The notes beneath the pieces were generated by a model. The model was not told the DNA's origin. It made no database searches and was given only the letters and a program-made list of their open reading frames with translations. Both the position numbers and the translations under genes were made by a program. DNA of 35,774 bases from Gammaproteobacteria bacterium (GTDB taxonomy: Bacteria > Pseudomonadota > Gammaproteobacteria > DSM-19610): positions 1-35,774 of the forward strand of contig JAPHQV010000053.1 of the NCBI GenBank assembly GCA_026197075.1, written 5' to 3'. Below, piece by piece: positions 884-7,513 of this stretch; the stretch's first letter is position 1, and the number at the start of each line of letters is the position of its first letter.

Positions 884-1040
884 AGACAAAGGAGACAAAG
901 GGGACGGACAAAGGGGACAGATTTATTTGTGAATGGCACTGCAAACATATCTACCTCATGCCTTTTCCACTCCAAACCAATCTCCACTTTTTATCCAAAT
1001 AAATCTGTCCCCTTTTCCACAGTCCCCTTTTCCAGCCCCT
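884..1040. mobile_element. small inverted-repeat (REP/MITE-like) element
   Basis: Perfect 20-bp inverted arms lie at 910-929 (AAAGGGGACAGATTTATTTG) and 996-1015, about 66 bp apart. They are flanked by direct GACAAAGG(G/A)GAC units on the left (885-918) and CCCCTTTTCC units on the right (1010-1042). The AAGGGGACAGATTTATTT motif is a widespread intergenic element that I associate with IS200-like REP transposases; no transposase is encoded here. The element abuts the broken GDCCVxC gene and sits where the attC of the DUF4041 cassette would be expected. From 1041 to 1145 I see no gene, only a weak CCGGG/CCCGG hairpin just after the DUF4041 stop codon. Confidence 0.65.
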
Positions 1041-1145
1041 TTTCCGCTCCCGTTGCTTCGGCTCATTGAGCACCAGATCGCATCCGCGCGAAATCTCGAA
1101 ATGTTTCTCGTTCGGGCTTCGCGTGCCGGGACTTACCCGGCGACA

Positions 1146-2486
1146 TCAACTACCACGAGGTGGCCTCCGACCTTCCGGCCAGTACCGAAGACTCTGCAAG
1201 AATTCAGTCGCTTCAACCCTCTCAGCGAATTCCAACAGATTGCCGACCTTCGCTTCCAGGACCTCTCTCACTTCGGCGGGAGTTGCGAAGAAGAACTCTT
1301 TCCGAGTGTTCACGCAGTTCAAGCGCCGGTCGGCGAAGTGCTGGTGTAGCTCAGCCTCCAGCCCAACGGCATCCTCCGAGAAAAAGAGGGCGTGCACGTC
1401 GAAGCGGAACGGCACCGAAGCACCCCCGAGTTCATTTACTCGGTCCAAGGGCTCCAGCCTTCGAGTCAGGCCGATCTTGATAACTCTGTCGCCGAAGGCA
1501 CCGCGGTTGGAAATAACATAAACGTATCCGGCCCGGATGTTTGCGGCCCGGTAGTCATTTTGGGCGATCGCCGCATCCAGTTCCGTAAGCCGGATCTCCA
1601 ACTCAGCGGCGTTGCCACCCGTGGCTTGGAGCTTCTGAATGGCATTAACGATATGGCTTCGCTCCTTGTCCAAGCGTTCGCGCTCTGCAGCCAGTTCCAT
1701 GGCCACCTTCCGCTCTTCACGAAGACGAACCCGCTCCTCTCGGGCCTCCTCTTTCTCCTCCTGCTTCTTCATGAGGAAATCCGCCGTGAGCTCGATCTCT
1801 TCAAGACGCAGGGCGTGAAACTCATCCGTTATGCTCATTTCCATCATCCGACCTAGCTTCGCGATGGCAGTCCGGGAGGCTTCGAGCCGCTTTTTTGCGG
1901 TGACGACGTTCCCAACCCGCAGCGTGCGAATACTGTTGTCCGCCTCGACGTTGTAGGCGCGGAGCATCAGTCTGCCCAGGTCGTTAGTCATCATGCGACC
2001 TTTGGCCAAGGATCCATCGTATGTGAACATCTCCGACTTCTGGATGCCCCTATCCGACTTCACGAGCATCGCGATACGCTCACTGAGGTCCGTCAGACGA
2101 TCACGATAGGCCGCAGCAGTCTCGAGTGGGTGATGGTACCGGTAGATGCCGACTTCCTGGAGGACCCGTTCATCGTTGAGGACTACCGTCTCCTCGGATG
2201 CCAAAGCCTCTAGCTGAAGACGAAGCGCTCGAAGTTCGCCCTCGAGCAGCGCGATCCGTGCATCACTATCGCCCGAGGAGACCACATGGAAATCGTTTTC
2301 GGGCGTCGAGGCAGTGGGGAAAGACTGTCCCTGTATCGCCTCCGCAGAGGCCGGCAGCCAAAGCTGCCAACCTTCAGGTGGTGGTGGCCACGAGGGATCC
2401 GGCGTCCAACCTTTCGGAGGCACCCATCCCGCCGGAGGCTTCGGCCAGCCCGGTGGTGGGTTGAATACAACGCCGCGATCACTCAT
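1146..2486 (-). CDS. DUF4041 and GIY-YIG (T5orf172) nuclease-like protein
   Basis: This is a 446-residue protein. Residues 8-45 are a Pro/Trp-rich repeat of PPxGW units. Residues about 75-235 match the DUF4041 pattern (EVGIYRY, KGRMMTNDLGRLMLRAYN, then a helical stretch). A long charged coiled coil (235-310) follows. Residues 320-410 are a T5orf172-type GIY-YIG domain with GYVYVIS at 320-326, KIGLTRR at 337-343, Arg349 and the KEFF glutamate at 397, so the catalytic residues appear intact. GIY-YIG domains cleave DNA. DUF4041 plus GIY-YIG is the core of the SNIPE antiphage nuclease, which is membrane-anchored; I see no membrane helix here. The start overlaps the stop of the upstream coiled-coil gene (ATGA), implying translational coupling. 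A role in phage defence is inferred from domain and context, not shown. Confidence 0.85.
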   Translation of the reverse strand: MSDRGVVFNPPPGWPKPPAGWVPPKGWTPDPSWPPPPEGWQLWLPASAEAIQGQSFPTASTPENDFHVVSSGDSDARIALLEGELRALRLQLEALASEETVVLNDERVLQEVGIYRYHHPLETAAAYRDRLTDLSERIAMLVKSDRGIQKSEMFTYDGSLAKGRMMTNDLGRLMLRAYNVEADNSIRTLRVGNVVTAKKRLEASRTAIAKLGRMMEMSITDEFHALRLEEIELTADFLMKKQEEKEEAREERVRLREERKVAMELAAERERLDKERSHIVNAIQKLQATGGNAAELEIRLTELDAAIAQNDYRAANIRAGYVYVISNRGAFGDRVIKIGLTRRLEPLDRVNELGGASVPFRFDVHALFFSEDAVGLEAELHQHFADRRLNCVNTRKEFFFATPAEVREVLEAKVGNLLEFAERVEATEFLQSLRYWPEGRRPPRGS

Positions 2487-3757
2487 GCCTTCCTCACACC
2501 TGTCGGATCGATCGGGACCAGTTCGTAGGGGTTTTTGGTGACAGCGGCACCCAGATGATCGAGAGTCGCGAGCGGTACTACCGACGAAAGATCGAACTTC
2601 ATGAAGGTCTCTCTGGCCGACGCTACGGCAACGAACGGTAGATAGGTGGCCAAGCCCGTGGCAGGATGAATCGTCTCGGTCCCGACTTCGAGTGAGATGG
2701 ACTGGATAATCCCTCGGCGGTCAGCCTCGAAGACCTCGTGCGGTATCCGAATAGCAACTTGGTGCACCGCACTGGCGTAGCGGTCCTTGCATGCCTTTTT
2801 AGAAAGCTGGCTTCCCGTAATCTCGTCGCTTGCCTTTGTGTATTTGTACGCTTTAACGGAGGGTACCTGATCAGGAGCCGGGACCACCGCACGAACTCGC
2901 AACTCTGCATGCGCGGGATCAAACTGGAATTCGGTAATCACAGGGAAATGGTCCGGGTAAACCGAGTTTGACATCACGATAGCGACGTACTCCTCGACTG
3001 CCTCGACCACACCATAACCCAGGTTCGAGGCCAGCTTGTCCACCGCAGCATTCTGTTCGGCTATCTTGGCCTCACGGGCCTCGCAATCCTTCGCGTACCT
3101 GGCCCTTTCAGCCTCGAGTTGCACCAACCGCCGTTCTTCATCGCGGACATGCGCCTCAAGTGCAGTCTTGTATTCGGCTTCAAGCCGCTTCACTGTCACC
3201 TTCCACTTCAATGAATCATCCTCGTGCTGCCTTCTTGCTTCCTCAAGGCGTTTCGCATGGCCCTTCTTGCCGAAAAGACCGAGCAGACCCGTAGGTGCGT
3301 CGGGCTCTATCAGTGCGGGCATTTCAGGAGACTCGGGCTTCGCTGGCGCTGGAATTGGTCGCTCGAGGTCGGGGCGATCGAACGGTGGATGCTTGACCTC
3401 TTGCTTCAACGTTTCCAAGTTAACGTGATCGTCCACAGATAGCGTGGCGGCCAGCAGTCCGTCGATCTCCGCGTATACCTCTTGGAGCTCTGCGTTGAGG
3501 TCGTCGACCTCGGCTAGTCTTGTCTCGAGGTGAGCAGCTGCCGCCTCCTTTTCGGCCTCCTTCTCCAGTCTCCTTAGTTCCGCGGCACTCGCTTTGGCCG
3601 CTTGTTGGCGGAGCCGCGCCTCTTGCTTTCTCCGCTGCTCGGTCGTCCGTTGGACTGCCCGCACTTCACGCTCGCGCCGACGCTGAGCACGCTCCGCCTC
3701 ACGTGCCGACGCCTGAATCGCCCTGTTGAGATCCGCCAAGAAGCTACGTCGCGCCAT
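2483..3757 (-). CDS. coiled-coil protein, partner of the GIY-YIG protein
   Basis: ATG at 3757, behind AGGAGAAGG, gives 424 residues. An upstream ATG at 3829 would lie inside the attC and is rejected. Residues 1-105 are an extremely charged coiled coil. Residues 120-155 are Pro-rich, with a GLLGLFGKKG patch at 157-166, and a second coiled coil spans 167-245. Residues 250-420 form a globular, beta-rich domain (VKAYKYTKASDEITG, then HLGAAVTKNPYELVPID at the end). From memory, this last domain resembles the segment that precedes an Mrr-type nuclease domain in some longer coiled-coil restriction endonucleases, but here the chain stops where the nuclease would begin. The 4-base overlap with the GIY-YIG gene suggests that the nuclease is supplied in trans. 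The family assignment needs a profile search. Confidence 0.75.
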   Translation of the reverse strand: MARRSFLADLNRAIQASAREAERAQRRREREVRAVQRTTEQRRKQEARLRQQAAKASAAELRRLEKEAEKEAAAAHLETRLAEVDDLNAELQEVYAEIDGLLAATLSVDDHVNLETLKQEVKHPPFDRPDLERPIPAPAKPESPEMPALIEPDAPTGLLGLFGKKGHAKRLEEARRQHEDDSLKWKVTVKRLEAEYKTALEAHVRDEERRLVQLEAERARYAKDCEAREAKIAEQNAAVDKLASNLGYGVVEAVEEYVAIVMSNSVYPDHFPVITEFQFDPAHAELRVRAVVPAPDQVPSVKAYKYTKASDEITGSQLSKKACKDRYASAVHQVAIRIPHEVFEADRRGIIQSISLEVGTETIHPATGLATYLPFVAVASARETFMKFDLSSVVPLATLDHLGAAVTKNPYELVPIDPTGVRKA

Positions 3758-3771
3758 TAACCTTCTCCTAG

Positions 3772-3843
3772 ATTGAACGCCTAAGCTGTGCGGTGCAAGC
3801 GAAGCGCAGCGTATTTTGCATCCGAACAATCGTCTTGTTATGC
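3772..3843 (-). other. attC site after the trypco2 gene
   Basis: On the minus strand the R'' box is GCATAAC (3843-3837) and the R' end is GTTCAAT (3778-3772). Internal arms CGGATGCAA and TTGCACCG pair with one bulged base, the extrahelical feature typical of attC. R'' complements the first bases of this cassette (TTATGC at 4328-4323), as it should in the circular form. It is 72 bp long and begins immediately after the trypco2 stop codon. Confidence 0.85.
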
Positions 3844-3844
3844 A

Positions 3845-4309
3845 TTACACTCCCATCCAGCTGCCACGACTCCGATTGTGATTCCGAATAGCCTCTGATT
3901 GCCTGCGTCGCTTTTCTCTTAGCATTTCATCTTGCTCTTTTAGCTGTTTTTCTGAAACCGCATCAACTGGGAGTCCCAACGGAACTTTAAAGCTAATTCT
4001 GTTAGTTGCGCTATTTGATGTGTTTTTTTCTACGCCGCCACCCACTTTCAATAGACTTGCGACCTGAAGCTTAGCCTTAGCTTCCCCGCCACTTTCTTCG
4101 ACCACAGTAACCGACACATCGAAATCCACGAGAAATATATTTTGGCCGTTGCTTAGAACGCCAAAATGAGATTCACTCGAGTTATTGGGATTTACGCGAT
4201 GCGCAGGATTAACAAAACCGCCACAATCGCGTACTTCTGTCTGGGCTGCCTCAATGCCCGCTGCAATTTGCGACAATGTTTCTTTTACAAATTCTTTAAG
4301 TTCCATCAT
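3845..4309 (-). CDS. trypco2-domain protein
   Basis: This is a 154-residue protein. Residues 1-115 fit the trypco2 (trypsin-co-occurring) pattern: an N-terminal helix LKEFVKETLSQIAAGIEAAQ, a GGFVNP turn at 30-35, a beta strand around VDFDVSVTVVEES (61-73), a small-residue stretch, and a closing strand ISFKVPLGLP (105-114). The tail from 118 is charged and helical. Known trypco domains are small components of predicted conflict systems, usually beside trypsin-like peptidases or other effectors. No peptidase is nearby, so this is a single-gene cassette (4328 to 3778). The DNA is visibly more AT-rich than its neighbours to the right. An ATG three bases downstream (4306) is an equally possible start. 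An immune role is inferred only. Confidence 0.75.
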   Translation of the reverse strand: MMELKEFVKETLSQIAAGIEAAQTEVRDCGGFVNPAHRVNPNNSSESHFGVLSNGQNIFLVDFDVSVTVVEESGGEAKAKLQVASLLKVGGGVEKNTSNSATNRISFKVPLGLPVDAVSEKQLKEQDEMLREKRRRQSEAIRNHNRSRGSWMGV

Positions 4310-4322
4310 CGTTCCCTTTTAT

Positions 4323-4385
4323 GCATAACACTGCCTTCAGCGGAAGATGTGCGTTAGCACCGATGTCCGCTGCACAGCGTTGTCA
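4323..4385 (-). other. attC site overlapping the 3' end of a membrane protein gene
   Basis: R' reads GTTATGC on the minus strand (4329-4323) and R'' reads TGACAAC (4385-4379), a weak fit. The arms TGCAGCGGA and TTCCGCTGAA pair closely with a bulge. It is 63 bp long. The preceding gene reads into the site and stops within its R' arm at 4337, so its last 16 or so residues are encoded by attC DNA, a situation often seen in cassette arrays. Confidence 0.8.
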
Positions 4386-4825
4386 TGCGCTGGTTCCATC
4401 ACCTTCCTCGACAAATCTCGCCAAACCCTGCTTGCTTCCTTTAAGCTTCGCTCTTCTAATTTCATTCGGATAATGCGTTGGAAGAGAATTAAAAACTGGC
4501 TTGAATATCCTTGATTTATTTTTTCTCTAATAGTATCTAATGTCATCATATTGTAAGAGTTAGCAGTCAGGTAACCAATAATCTGATCTTTAGCTATTTC
4601 TCGCTTTTTCTCATTATTTGAGCCAATCAACATAGCCACAACACCCAGAATATAAGCAATAAGAACAATACTGAGCGACCAATACTGAGCGCACAAACCA
4701 AATTCTAGCTTTTCAAGTATTCGCAACCATGCTTCGAACACAAAAGGAAGCGCAAGAAATGAGATAAGGAAAAGATCTAATGGCGATGCTTCCTTCAATG
4801 TTTTTAAAATTGTCTTAGGATCCAT
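4337..4825 (-). CDS. two-helix membrane protein of unknown function
   Basis: This 162-residue protein has two membrane helices (about 16-36 and 48-68), then a cytoplasmic region. Its segment KDQIIGYLTANSYNMMTLDT could form a winged-helix-like fold, and a basic helix (about 118-140) follows. The last 16 or so residues (from HDNAVQRTSV) are encoded by the attC and are probably not conserved. The gene shares a cassette (5322 to 4329) with the upstream membrane protein at 4890-5276, and no attC is evident between them. The DNA is AT-rich. I do not recognise the family. Its position among defence-type cassettes is the only functional hint. Confidence 0.65.
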   Translation of the reverse strand: MDPKTILKTLKEASPLDLFLISFLALPFVFEAWLRILEKLEFGLCAQYWSLSIVLIAYILGVVAMLIGSNNEKKREIAKDQIIGYLTANSYNMMTLDTIREKINQGYSSQFLILFQRIIRMKLEERSLKEASRVWRDLSRKVMEPAHDNAVQRTSVLTHIFR

Positions 4826-4889
4826 TGTTCGATTCTTTGTAATGGCTAGTGGTCGCTATAGCGAACTAAAATTATGCTTGCGGCATAGA

Positions 4890-5276
4890 TTACTGAGCGT
4901 GGCGTTTGGTATACGCAATCCTAAATACGATTGCGGCCGCATTGATAACATACCCAACTACCAGCACACCGAATAGCTCTCCAATAATTGATCCTCTTAA
5001 ATAGTCACCACCATCCAGATGCATGGAAATCTTTAAAGCAACAAGGCTAACTGCTACCGTTAAAAGGACAGCAAACAGGATCTTTTGATTCTTTATAAAA
5101 ATAGAAAAGGGGGCTAGGACAATCCAAAGCCATTCATCCACAAGATTAAACGTGATCCCGTTAATAAAAAATGCGACCTTCTCGCTATCCGCAAGGATTC
5201 CATAAATAACAACCAGAATCAGAATTGCAAGTAATGCCATGTGCACCTTGAGGCCACCAATATTGGTTGTATTCAT
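4890..5276 (-). CDS. four-helix membrane protein of unknown function
   Basis: The 128 residues contain four predicted membrane segments (about 12-28, 45-60, 65-84 and 97-118) and a short basic tail. ATG at 5276 follows a GAGGAG ribosome-binding site. The gene begins close after the attC at 5317-5413 and is the first of two membrane-protein genes in one cassette. The 64-bp gap to the next gene holds a perfect 12-bp palindrome (4853-4864, TCGCTATAGCGA) but no R'' or R' boxes, so either the two genes are one unit or an attC there has decayed. No catalytic motif is visible. A pore or effector role is possible but unsupported. Confidence 0.6.
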   Translation of the reverse strand: MNTTNIGGLKVHMALLAILILVVIYGILADSEKVAFFINGITFNLVDEWLWIVLAPFSIFIKNQKILFAVLLTVAVSLVALKISMHLDGGDYLRGSIIGELFGVLVVGYVINAAAIVFRIAYTKRHAQ

Positions 5277-5316
5277 TTGGACTCCTCTACAAGCCTTCGG
5301 TAATCAAATTGCCACC

Positions 5317-5413
5317 GCATAACGCCTGAGTTCAGCGGCGTTTGAGGCACCGCCTGTTTTGCGGCGGCAAAGCAGGCGGCGGATCAAACGTCCGCTGCAA
5401 CGATTTGTTGGGC
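5317..5413 (-). other. attC site after the Abi_C gene (clearest example)
   Basis: This is a textbook attC on the minus strand. R'' is GCCCAAC (5413-5407) and R' is GTTATGC (5323-5317). Outer arms TTGCAGCGGACGTTTGA and TCAAACGCCGCTGAA pair with an extrahelical base, and an inner GC-rich hairpin (about 5347-5383) closes the loop. It is 97 bp long. R'' is the exact complement of the cassette's first bases (TTGGGC at 6282-6277). The Abi_C stop codon lies one base before R''. Confidence 0.93.
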
Positions 5414-5414
5414 G

Positions 5415-6242
5415 TCATATGCTCCGCTCCAGGTGGGTTTCAAGCAGAAAGGTGGCAAGCGTTCCGGCGGCCCCAACCGCCAGGCGAGCGTGCCGTGGTC
5501 CGAGACCGCGAACTGACCCGTCTTTTCCATGACCCGTGCCGTATAAGTTTCTCAACTCTCCCAGGCCCTGTGCCACATTGCCTAGGTTGCTCAGCAAACG
5601 TCGAATAGCATCTGCACCTTTTGCGGAGTTTGGTATGGACTCAGGCACTAGCCCCAAAGCCTGCCGCGTTTCCTTCACTAGCTTTGGAACGTCGGCATCG
5701 GCTCGCAAATCTATACTTCGCTCGGCGAGGATGGTTTTACACACCGTTTCCACCAACTCCTTTGCAGTGCCAATGGCCAATGCGGGGTCAGCCTCGACCG
5801 CAGCGTTCATGCGTTCAATTTGGCGGTGCAGTTCAGGCATGTCGAGGTGCCCAACCGCATCGGCAATTCCTGCAAGTGCCTGATGATTCCGCACGGACGT
5901 GAGGCGCCCATTTTCATACCTGAACCCATCACGCTCAATCCACTTTTTAAGGAACTTGAACGCATTTTCAGCCCATTCCTGTCCATTTTCCGCAATGTCT
6001 TCGACAGAAAGCAGGACATTTTCATAGACCGTCAGGATCTTCCGAACATCCGACCATTTTGACCAATCGACGGAGTGGTAATACTGCTCGACCAAGGACC
6101 GGCGCTGTCCAGTTTCAGGCGGGTCGTACTCCCAATCGCACACTACATCTGCCGAATCGAACTCCTGCGAGATGGTTGAAAGCGAGGTGCCGACAAAATA
6201 TTCGCGGAACTCGATGCGCGTCTTCTTGCTGATGATGTCCAT
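5415..6242 (-). CDS. abortive infection (Abi_C domain) family protein
   Basis: This is a 275-residue protein. Residues 1-110 are an alpha-helical N-terminal region of the kind found in Abi-family proteins. Residues about 120-265 match the Abi_C domain (ALAIGTAKELVETVCKTIL at 155-173, PKLVKETRQALGL, then RNLYGTGHG at 231-239). R231-N and H238 form an R-x6-H arrangement within the R-x4-6-H motif of HEPN ribonucleases, so RNA cleavage is a reasonable inference. Family members are predicted to act by growth arrest on phage infection. The gene fills a single-gene cassette (6282 to 5323), starting about 40 bases from the cassette junction and stopping against the attC. Target, trigger and any partner are unknown. 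Confidence 0.85.
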   Translation of the reverse strand: MDIISKKTRIEFREYFVGTSLSTISQEFDSADVVCDWEYDPPETGQRRSLVEQYYHSVDWSKWSDVRKILTVYENVLLSVEDIAENGQEWAENAFKFLKKWIERDGFRYENGRLTSVRNHQALAGIADAVGHLDMPELHRQIERMNAAVEADPALAIGTAKELVETVCKTILAERSIDLRADADVPKLVKETRQALGLVPESIPNSAKGADAIRRLLSNLGNVAQGLGELRNLYGTGHGKDGSVRGLGPRHARLAVGAAGTLATFLLETHLERSI

Positions 6243-6276: not shown

Positions 6277-6392
6277 GCCCAACTCTTATTAGCGGGTGAA
6301 CGCCCGATAACGCGAAACAGGGTGCGCGCGCCCGGTTAATAGCCGATTTGGGTGTGATATGGTGCAGACGCCCGATAACAATCTTGTTATTT
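6277..6392 (-). other. long attC-like site, copy 2 (after GDCCVxC gene)
   Basis: On the minus strand R' is GTTGGGC (6283-6277), shared with the start of the Abi_C cassette. The most likely R'' is AAATAAC (6392-6386), followed by AAGATTGTTATCGGGCG, which resembles other attC 5' arms. The 3' arm TCACCCGCTAATAAGAGTT pairs with it imperfectly. An alternative R'' is CAATAAC at 6415-6409, which exactly complements the cassette's first bases (TTATTG, 6886-6881) and would make the site about 139 bp. Either length is near that of Vibrio-type repeats. The region 6284-6640 otherwise holds only short palindromes (for example CGGGCACGTGCCCG at 6505-6518). Confidence 0.6.
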
Positions 6393-6733
6393 CCCCGTGT
6401 TCTTCGTTGTTATTGGTTTACTTATAAACTTTTCCCCCCGCCCCTGGCAACCTGGGCCGGATTAACGCGCAGGCGCACGTTTATCCCGGGAATGGCCACT
6501 TATACGGGCACGTGCCCGAAAATATCCATGATTGGGGAGCAAAGCGGTCGCGGTAACCGAATGATATTTAGTTAAAAAATCGTCCTCGCCCGTTTATTGA
6601 TATCCATATACCGCCACTGGCCGGGGACGCCCCGATCCATTCATCCGCAGCAGCCACCGCCCTGCTGGATGGGCGGGCATTTCACCGTGCCAAAGGAACA
6701 GAACACGCAGCAGTCGCCGGGCCTGGGTTTCAG
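6282..6733. repeat. 452-bp repeat, copy 2
   Basis: Partner of 432-883; see that entry. This copy is continuous with an intact GDCCVxC gene, whereas copy 1 is cut at its right edge by an inverted-repeat element. The two copies bracket the defence-type cassettes in direct orientation, so homologous recombination between them could delete or amplify the block 883-6282. Confidence 0.85.
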
Positions 6734-6898: not shown

Positions 6899-7192
6899 CT
6901 ATGCGGCCGAGAGCTTTAGTTTCCGCACCTGCTTAAGGTCTACATGCTTGCGGGCATGCCACAGGTCGTACTGATCCTGCATTGCCAGCCAGCTTTCGGG
7001 AGTTCGTCCAAGCGCCTTGGACAGGCGCAGCGCCATTTCGGGGGAGATATTGCTATCGCCATTCAGTAGCCGGTTAAGGGTGGATGCAGAAACCCCCAGG
7101 CTCTCTGCCACCTGGCGAGCACTGATATCGAATGGTGTTATGTAGACCTCGCGGATAAATTCTCCGGGATGAGGCGGGTTATGCATGGGCAT
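6899..7192 (-). CDS. higA: HigA-type antitoxin
   Basis: A 97-residue antitoxin with an N-terminal PPHPGEFIRE signature (residues about 6-15) and a central helix-turn-helix (ISARQVAESLGVSASTLNRL). This is followed by ALRLSKALGRTPESWLAMQ, all standard for the HigA/VapI XRE group. It neutralises HigB by binding it and represses the operon through DNA binding. Its ATG at 7192 overlaps the higB stop by one base (TGATG). A second in-frame ATG lies at 7186. Toxin-before-antitoxin order is usual for higBA. Such pairs are common in chromosomal integrons, where they are thought to stabilise the array. Confidence 0.9.
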   Translation of the reverse strand: MPMHNPPHPGEFIREVYITPFDISARQVAESLGVSASTLNRLLNGDSNISPEMALRLSKALGRTPESWLAMQDQYDLWHARKHVDLKQVRKLKLSAA

Positions 7193-7470
7193 CAGTGATA
7201 ATCCTCGTAATCGACCAGGTCCGCATTGCCATCCTGGAAGGTGAAGGTAACGCGCCAATTTCCGCTTACCGATACCGCCCATCGGCCTTTTAACTTCCCT
7301 TTCAGGGCATGCAACCCAAAACCCGGGATATCCATATCCTCGATTACAGTAGCGGTGTCCAGGGCAGCCATGAGCATTCGAATCCTGGCTGCATGGGCAG
7401 GCTGTATACCCGTCATGCGGCCATCTTCGAAGAAACGGCGCAGTCCCTTGTGCCGGATCGATAGAATCAT
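7192..7470 (-). CDS. higB: HigB-type (RelE superfamily) toxin
   Basis: The 92 residues match the HigB/RelE-like mRNA interferase family. The start is MILSIRHKGLRRFFEDG, the middle has LHALKGKLKGRWAVSVSGNWRV, and the end is the conserved DVDYEDYH-like motif (here LVDYEDYH). Members cleave mRNA at the ribosome and are counteracted by HigA, encoded directly downstream. The promoter region contains a palindrome between likely -35 and -10 boxes, consistent with autoregulation. The presumed transcription start lies only a base or so before the ATG, so the toxin message may be leaderless. The protein is full length. Confidence 0.9.
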   Translation of the reverse strand: MILSIRHKGLRRFFEDGRMTGIQPAHAARIRMLMAALDTATVIEDMDIPGFGLHALKGKLKGRWAVSVSGNWRVTFTFQDGNADLVDYEDYH

Positions 7471-7477
7471 TGGTGAA

Positions 7478-7505
7478 GCATAGCGTGTTGCGCTCCACGC
7501 AACAA
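7478..7505 (-). promoter_or_regulatory. higBA promoter and operator
   Basis: Reading the minus strand, TTGTTG (7505-7500) and TATGCT (7483-7478) are spaced by 16 bases, a fair sigma-70 promoter. A perfect palindrome with 7-bp arms TGTTGCG and CGCAACA (7486-7504, 5-bp spacer) sits between them, well placed for HigA repression. Confidence 0.6.
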
Positions 7506-7513
7506 CAGGTCAC

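Follow-up and report, generated by a model that had tools for sequence, protein, structure and literature searches.

SNIPE (PD-lambda-1), a membrane-bound DUF4041-GIY-YIG nuclease of E. coli, is the closest described relative of the system presented here (PMC13190303, PMC9519451). This single-gene system cleaves phage DNA during injection, in contact with the tape measure protein, and tells self from non-self by cellular location (PMC13190303). When deprived of its membrane segment, SNIPE binds and cuts the host chromosome and is toxic, the anchor serving both to restrain and to position the enzyme (PMC13190303). A transmembrane helix is predicted in 66% of the set of SNIPE homologues and is missing from 34%, and the authors think that the anchorless homologues get to the membrane by other means (PMC13190303). 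Since one third of the family is already without a helix, the loss of the anchor alone is not new; the novelty of the locus described below is its partner gene. No mention of such a gene with SNIPE was found in the consulted portions of PMC13190303, and none is described in the excerpted literature passages on DUF4041 proteins.

In the window, i.e., the whole stretch of 35,774 nucleotides of gammaproteobacterial DNA that was analysed, two genes on the minus strand form the system, with the following features:

1146..2486, minus strand: SNIPE-type nuclease gene with DUF4041 and GIY-YIG/T5orf172 domains (446 aa; profile matches)
1254..1529, minus strand: GIY-YIG/T5orf172 catalytic domain, nuclease residues 320-411
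1296-1298 and 1440-1442, minus strand: nuclease Glu397 and Arg349, respectively, inside the GIY-YIG/T5orf172 domain
1806..1973, minus strand: DUF4041 domain, nuclease residues 172-227
2352..2486, minus strand: Pro/Trp-rich N-terminus, about residues 1-45, at the position of the SNIPE membrane anchor (six of six pair-bearing nucleases)
2483..2486, minus strand: ATGA, in which the stop codon of the partner and the start codon of the nuclease overlap (sequence)
2483..3757, minus strand: partner gene, beginning with the ATG at 3757 and encoding 424 aa with a coiled coil and an alpha/beta domain; it shares homology with the module found N-terminally in Mrr restriction endonucleases
2543..3010, minus strand: partner C-terminal alpha/beta domain, residues 250-405 (predicted structure)
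3017..3268, minus strand: partner second long helix, residues 164-247, with a conserved P..GLFG motif ahead of it (predicted structure and alignment)
3461..3751, minus strand: residues 3-99 of the partner, an N-terminal helix whose beginning is amphipathic (predicted structure)

The domain profile search found DUF4041 (PF13250, E=6.5e-20) and T5orf172 (PF10544, E=2.2e-15) in the nuclease, which also matched the PADLOC PD-Lambda-1 model (334 bits, E 3.1e-100) and phrog_1847 (348 bits), in full support of the initial annotation of this gene as a SNIPE-type nuclease. Common to SNIPE and the window nuclease is the DUF4041/GIY-YIG region, over window residues 78-434, together with the invariant catalytic Arg/Glu; Arg349 and Glu397 are unchanged in 12 of 12 aligned nuclease homologues, those of E. 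coli and Salmonella included. The window system departs from SNIPE in having no transmembrane segment, in carrying a Pro/Trp-rich N-terminus instead (FNPPPGWPKPPAGW..PDPSWPPPPEGWQLW) and in its coupled second gene. As judged by 19-residue Kyte-Doolittle means, no hydrophobic stretch of the window nuclease attains the usual transmembrane threshold: the best mean is 0.54-0.89 in the nuclease's three near-identical copies and the peak is 0.39-0.89 across the pair-bearing nucleases, compared with 1.7-3.4 in anchored homologues. The proposed replacement of the anchor by a Pro/Trp-rich N-terminus is therefore upheld, and the description as a possible soluble relative of SNIPE holds as regards a relative without a transmembrane anchor; "soluble" goes further than this result, and the authors of the SNIPE study think that anchorless homologues reach the membrane (PMC13190303). 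A similar Pro/Trp-rich N-terminal motif stands ahead of a hydrophobic membrane-type segment on an unrelated contig (L153, 984-2855, plus strand), and as it also heads this unrelated protein, the motif looks like a portable module. A plasmid search with the Pro/Trp stretch yielded no match, to be ascribed in all likelihood to low-complexity filtering. Pro/Trp-rich or DUF2510 N-termini might localise the nuclease by themselves.

The structure model of the partner (mean pLDDT 92) shows a pair of long helices followed by an alpha/beta domain, and the modelled helices together with the four-base overlap bear out the earlier reading of a 424-residue coiled-coil gene translationally coupled to the nuclease. 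That reading did not extend to the large C-terminal alpha/beta domain, the homology with Mrr enzymes and the cassette-array setting, all of which are added here. Sequence searches of the PDB with the partner, the nuclease and the partner profile returned no relative, and the alpha/beta domain had no PDB fold match at E<=0.001. The sex pheromone cAM373 precursor (3n2q) was rejected as a fold relative of the partner, the VIA Z of 7.1 lying in the chance range and the best Foldseek E being 0.0078 (whole partner and alpha/beta domain alone), and the only match of the fold search in BFVD, an uncharacterised protein of a phage, was weak. Transmembrane helices are absent from the partner. Its N-terminal helix ranks among the protein's most amphipathic segments in most of the tested family members; the signal is modest (helical moments of 0.23-0.59, with L006 and L007 weak) and hints at membrane contact, but at no more than that.

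Between the window and its close copies, dN/dS was 0.20-0.25 for the partner and 0.12-0.19 for the nuclease; with values of 0.12-0.25, neither gene is a chance ORF, and judging by these ratios both are under purifying selection. A housekeeping role of the partner was ruled out by its patchy presence, in one of 39 genomes among relatives, namely the window's own. No partner protein was present in the phage record collection, and the pair region was absent from the E. coli genomes.

Altogether, the pair was recovered at six loci, comprising the window and five further complete or near-complete copies in a Verrucomicrobia MAG (L002), a Desulfatitalea MAG (L003), a Desulfofustis MAG (L004), a Kocuria rosea plasmid and a prophage contig. 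When genome contigs were scanned with the partner, the nuclease was found immediately 3' of it in the three MAGs, at 92-95% identity. The identities for the Kocuria pair are 51% (partner) and 68% (nuclease); the prophage pair, which adjoins an integrase-like gene, has a nuclease of 60% identity and a frameshift in the partner. Gene order and the Pro/Trp-rich nuclease N-terminus are kept in all six pairs, the tight gene overlap is retained in L002, L003, L004, L006 and L023, and partner identity across the linked pairs spans 51-92%. Four of these pairs (window and three MAG contigs) belong to one near-identical cassette family, so the deep divergence is that of three lineages, i.e., the cassette family, Kocuria and the prophage. 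These comparisons demonstrate the pairing and the coupling of the two genes. Lack of conservation across genomes, which had been named as the observation that would speak against a distinct two-component variant, was not what the search revealed: the six loci are distantly placed and the coupling is kept. We accordingly regard the pair as a real and conserved two-gene variant of SNIPE whose function is predicted.

A tree of 94 rows (the best 80 of 495 SNIPE relatives in viral contigs, plus plasmid and genome copies), built by a quick method, gathered the six pair-bearing nucleases into one clade with 100% SH-aLRT. Partner and Pro/Trp motif occurred in none of the 88 remaining SNIPE rows of the tree, whose N-termini carry transmembrane helices, DUF2510 or short "MGLF..K" helices running into a coiled coil. 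This distribution points to a single origin of the Pro/Trp nuclease with its partner. Additionally, one phage contig carries two SNIPE-like genes (L109 and L110), one of them very divergent.

The partner itself leads to another group of nucleases, the Mrr_cat endonucleases with a long coiled-coil N-terminus, e.g., WP_075382261.1 of Methylobacterium pMOC3, with whose N-terminal module it aligns. Homology links partner residues 4-418 with the N-terminal ~380 residues of these endonucleases (PADLOC PDLC03663 "mREase_IV", a catalogue label only); the match covers the first ~380 of the 544 positions of this type IV model at 112-140 bits, as against 256-344 bits for full fusions; identity to the L007 Mrr fusion is 31% (tblastn) or 35% (multiple alignment). 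Common ancestry of the partner and the Mrr N-terminal module is demonstrated by these alignments. Relatives of the partner from plasmids, prophages and genomes run on past the common region into Mrr_cat, whereas the window partner has no Mrr_cat PD-(D/E)XK domain and stops a few residues past that region, at the start of the Mrr linker; in the window pair, the nuclease activity would come from the separate GIY-YIG gene and not from an Mrr domain. Outside the pair, all complete family members that were found are Mrr-fused, a few with a frameshift or a two-ORF split, and at least 30 loci carry the module covalently joined to Mrr. L060/L061, considered as an Mrr version divided between two genes, proved on inspection to reflect a frameshift and no second gene pair. 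A profile search without bias towards Mrr, which covered the phylum of the window (398 genomes) and that of Desulfofustis (297 genomes), returned nine Mrr fusions and one contig-end fragment besides the pairs. Such fusions are frequent in phage and prophage contigs (L024, L025 and L035-L065; 32 matches in one scan).

The Mrr fusions bearing the partner module are thus a widespread and uncharacterised nuclease family. Since the partner family is homologous to proteins that continue into Mrr_cat, the module works with a nuclease, and fusions and pairs together give it two nuclease outlets, Mrr in cis and the SNIPE-type enzyme in trans. Tentatively, and with a little less than even confidence, we see in the partner family a portable nuclease-delivery module that directs DNases of unrelated families to one common feature of phage infection, e.g., the injection site at the membrane.

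The surroundings of the pair have the character of a cassette array:

897..1045, unstranded: AAAAGGGGACAG element in place of the pair's own attC in the window copy, with inverted 35-bp repeats at 897-929 and 996-1030
3771..3780, minus strand: GCG|TTCAATC, the probable 5' boundary of the cassette, a short way upstream of the partner (GCG|TTCGATC at the equivalent place in L004)
3845..6242, minus strand: array genes that lie upstream and share the orientation of the pair, a Trypco2-like gene (3845-4309), two membrane-type ORFs and an Abi_C/AbiJ-like gene (5415-6242) (profile matches)
5317..5413, minus strand: the one clear attC site, which belongs to an adjacent cassette of this array (arm score 14; fold z -6.1)

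An arm score of at least 10 was reached in 0 of 10 shuffles; this result comes from an attC scan with longer arms, which replaced one that could not tell true sites apart from shuffled sequence. The window boundary is complementary to GGTCGAAC/AGTCGAAC in the attC 3' of the nuclease in L002 and L004, a site lying at 8713-8776 in L004 and degenerate in L002. The first core of this attC matches the sequence just 5' of the partner start codon, which is what a circularised cassette would show. The segment 3778-3852 was rejected as an attC upstream of the partner for want of a convincing attC fold, and only the boundary sequence is claimed there. In the window, the tail common to it and L002-L004 ends near 1045. 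A full integron integrase (IntI TIGR02249, 497 bits) is encoded on another contig of the window's genome, and the Desulfofustis unit is flanked by 98%-identical 3.2-kb direct repeats carrying transposase-like genes. The pair probably travels in integron-like cassette arrays. High identity between copies whose hosts belong to different phyla is consistent with a mobile cassette; misbinning of MAG contigs could exaggerate it.

Several further observations concern the same region. The Abi_C/AbiJ-like gene at the array head (5415-6242, minus strand; Abi_C E 5.4e-29) is a second likely defence gene. A 452-bp direct repeat (432-883 and 6282-6733, 89% identical), both copies of which begin in a GDCCVxC zinc-ribbon gene and end before a cassette-like ORF, is possibly a cassette insertion platform minus the integrase. 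Upstream of the array (6899-7513, minus strand), a helix-turn-helix domain follows a RelE/HigB-like stretch in an open frame, a probable toxin-antitoxin pair. In Saccharospirillum (L005, 5981-6600), a partner remnant ends after residue ~172, interrupted by a AATCAATGGGGTCAGAGTCATTG repeat, which resembles the loss of the attC from the window copy, where a GGGGACAGATTTATTT element took its place.

How might the two proteins work together? Given the toxicity of SNIPE deprived of its membrane segment (PMC13190303), an anchorless version has to be restrained in some other way and to find phage DNA by a different route, and the partner, coupled to the nuclease here and fused to nucleases elsewhere, is the obvious supplier of both functions. 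The suggestion made from the window sequence that the partner localises or gates the nuclease gains weight from the fusion of the same module to Mrr nucleases. We therefore consider it reasonably probable that the pair is a two-gene anti-phage nuclease system, in which a SNIPE-type DNase is served by a separate targeting subunit in place of a membrane anchor. Here we infer partner binding, restraint of the nuclease and a membrane location: the partner, translated first and in step with the nuclease, would assemble as a coiled-coil oligomer, bind the nuclease, perhaps via the Pro/Trp-rich N-terminus, hold it away from the chromosome, and present it at the place of phage DNA entry or where the alpha/beta domain recognises phage DNA. 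The DUF4041 region would contact DNA and a phage protein and the GIY-YIG domain would cut. Membrane attachment by the partner's amphipathic N-terminal helix is the version that we weakly favour. The membrane-sited, multi-part systems Kiwa (KwaA-KwaB) and Zorya (PMC12904381) likewise combine a localising or sensing subunit with a DNA-acting one; the likeness is one of working only, no homology with the partner having been found and the latter being free of transmembrane helices. The coiled-coil nuclease tandems, CoCoNuTs, resemble the pair only in their way of working, with a coiled coil tied to nucleases in a type IV context; they are a branch of McrBC systems (PMC11090510).

Obviously, other explanations have to be weighed. 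The main rival holds that the partner's alpha/beta domain reads phage DNA in type IV style, by sequence or base modification, and that the pair is a split modification-dependent restriction enzyme with GIY-YIG in Mrr's place. Mrr-type type IV enzymes usually have a DNA-reading domain N-terminal to the catalytic domain, the partner matches the PADLOC type IV model with the scores given above, and the examined array genes beside the pair include no methyltransferase. Nevertheless, we judge it unlikely, given an alpha/beta domain without a known reader fold match at E<=0.001, a coiled-coil layout that differs from the usual winged-helix or SRA readers, and a DUF4041 that in SNIPE already provides the DNA contact.

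A toxin-antitoxin-like arrangement, in which the partner simply inhibits the toxic, anchorless nuclease and is itself removed upon infection, would suit the leading position of the partner gene, its tight overlap and the toxicity of SNIPE minus its membrane segment (PMC13190303). Covalent fusion of the module to Mrr in so many loci is unexpected for a discardable antitoxin, and 424 aa with a large conserved domain is big for one, which makes this explanation improbable. Furthermore, the nuclease could act alone as an anchorless SNIPE, accompanied by an independent partner, e.g., a hitch-hiking restriction enzyme minus its catalytic domain. Anchorless homologues are common enough (PMC13190303), and the non-paired ones among those read have no neighbouring partner-family gene; but linkage in six of six cases across phyla at 51-92% partner identity, a partner dN/dS of 0.20-0.25 and the single origin of the Pro/Trp nuclease with its partner leave very little room for it.

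On the preferred reading of a nuclease with a separate targeting subunit, the location element, on which the distinction of self from non-self depends in SNIPE, appears to be a separate gene here, and one whose relatives also became fused to another kind of nuclease in the course of evolution, suggesting that the partner may be an interchangeable module which steers nucleases to their target. If so, the pair would make it possible to test directly if injection-site defences can have their targeting separated from their cutting, and would provide a handle on the widespread uncharacterised Mrr enzyme family. Additionally, the array setting suggests that integron cassettes may spread two-gene SNIPE across phyla.
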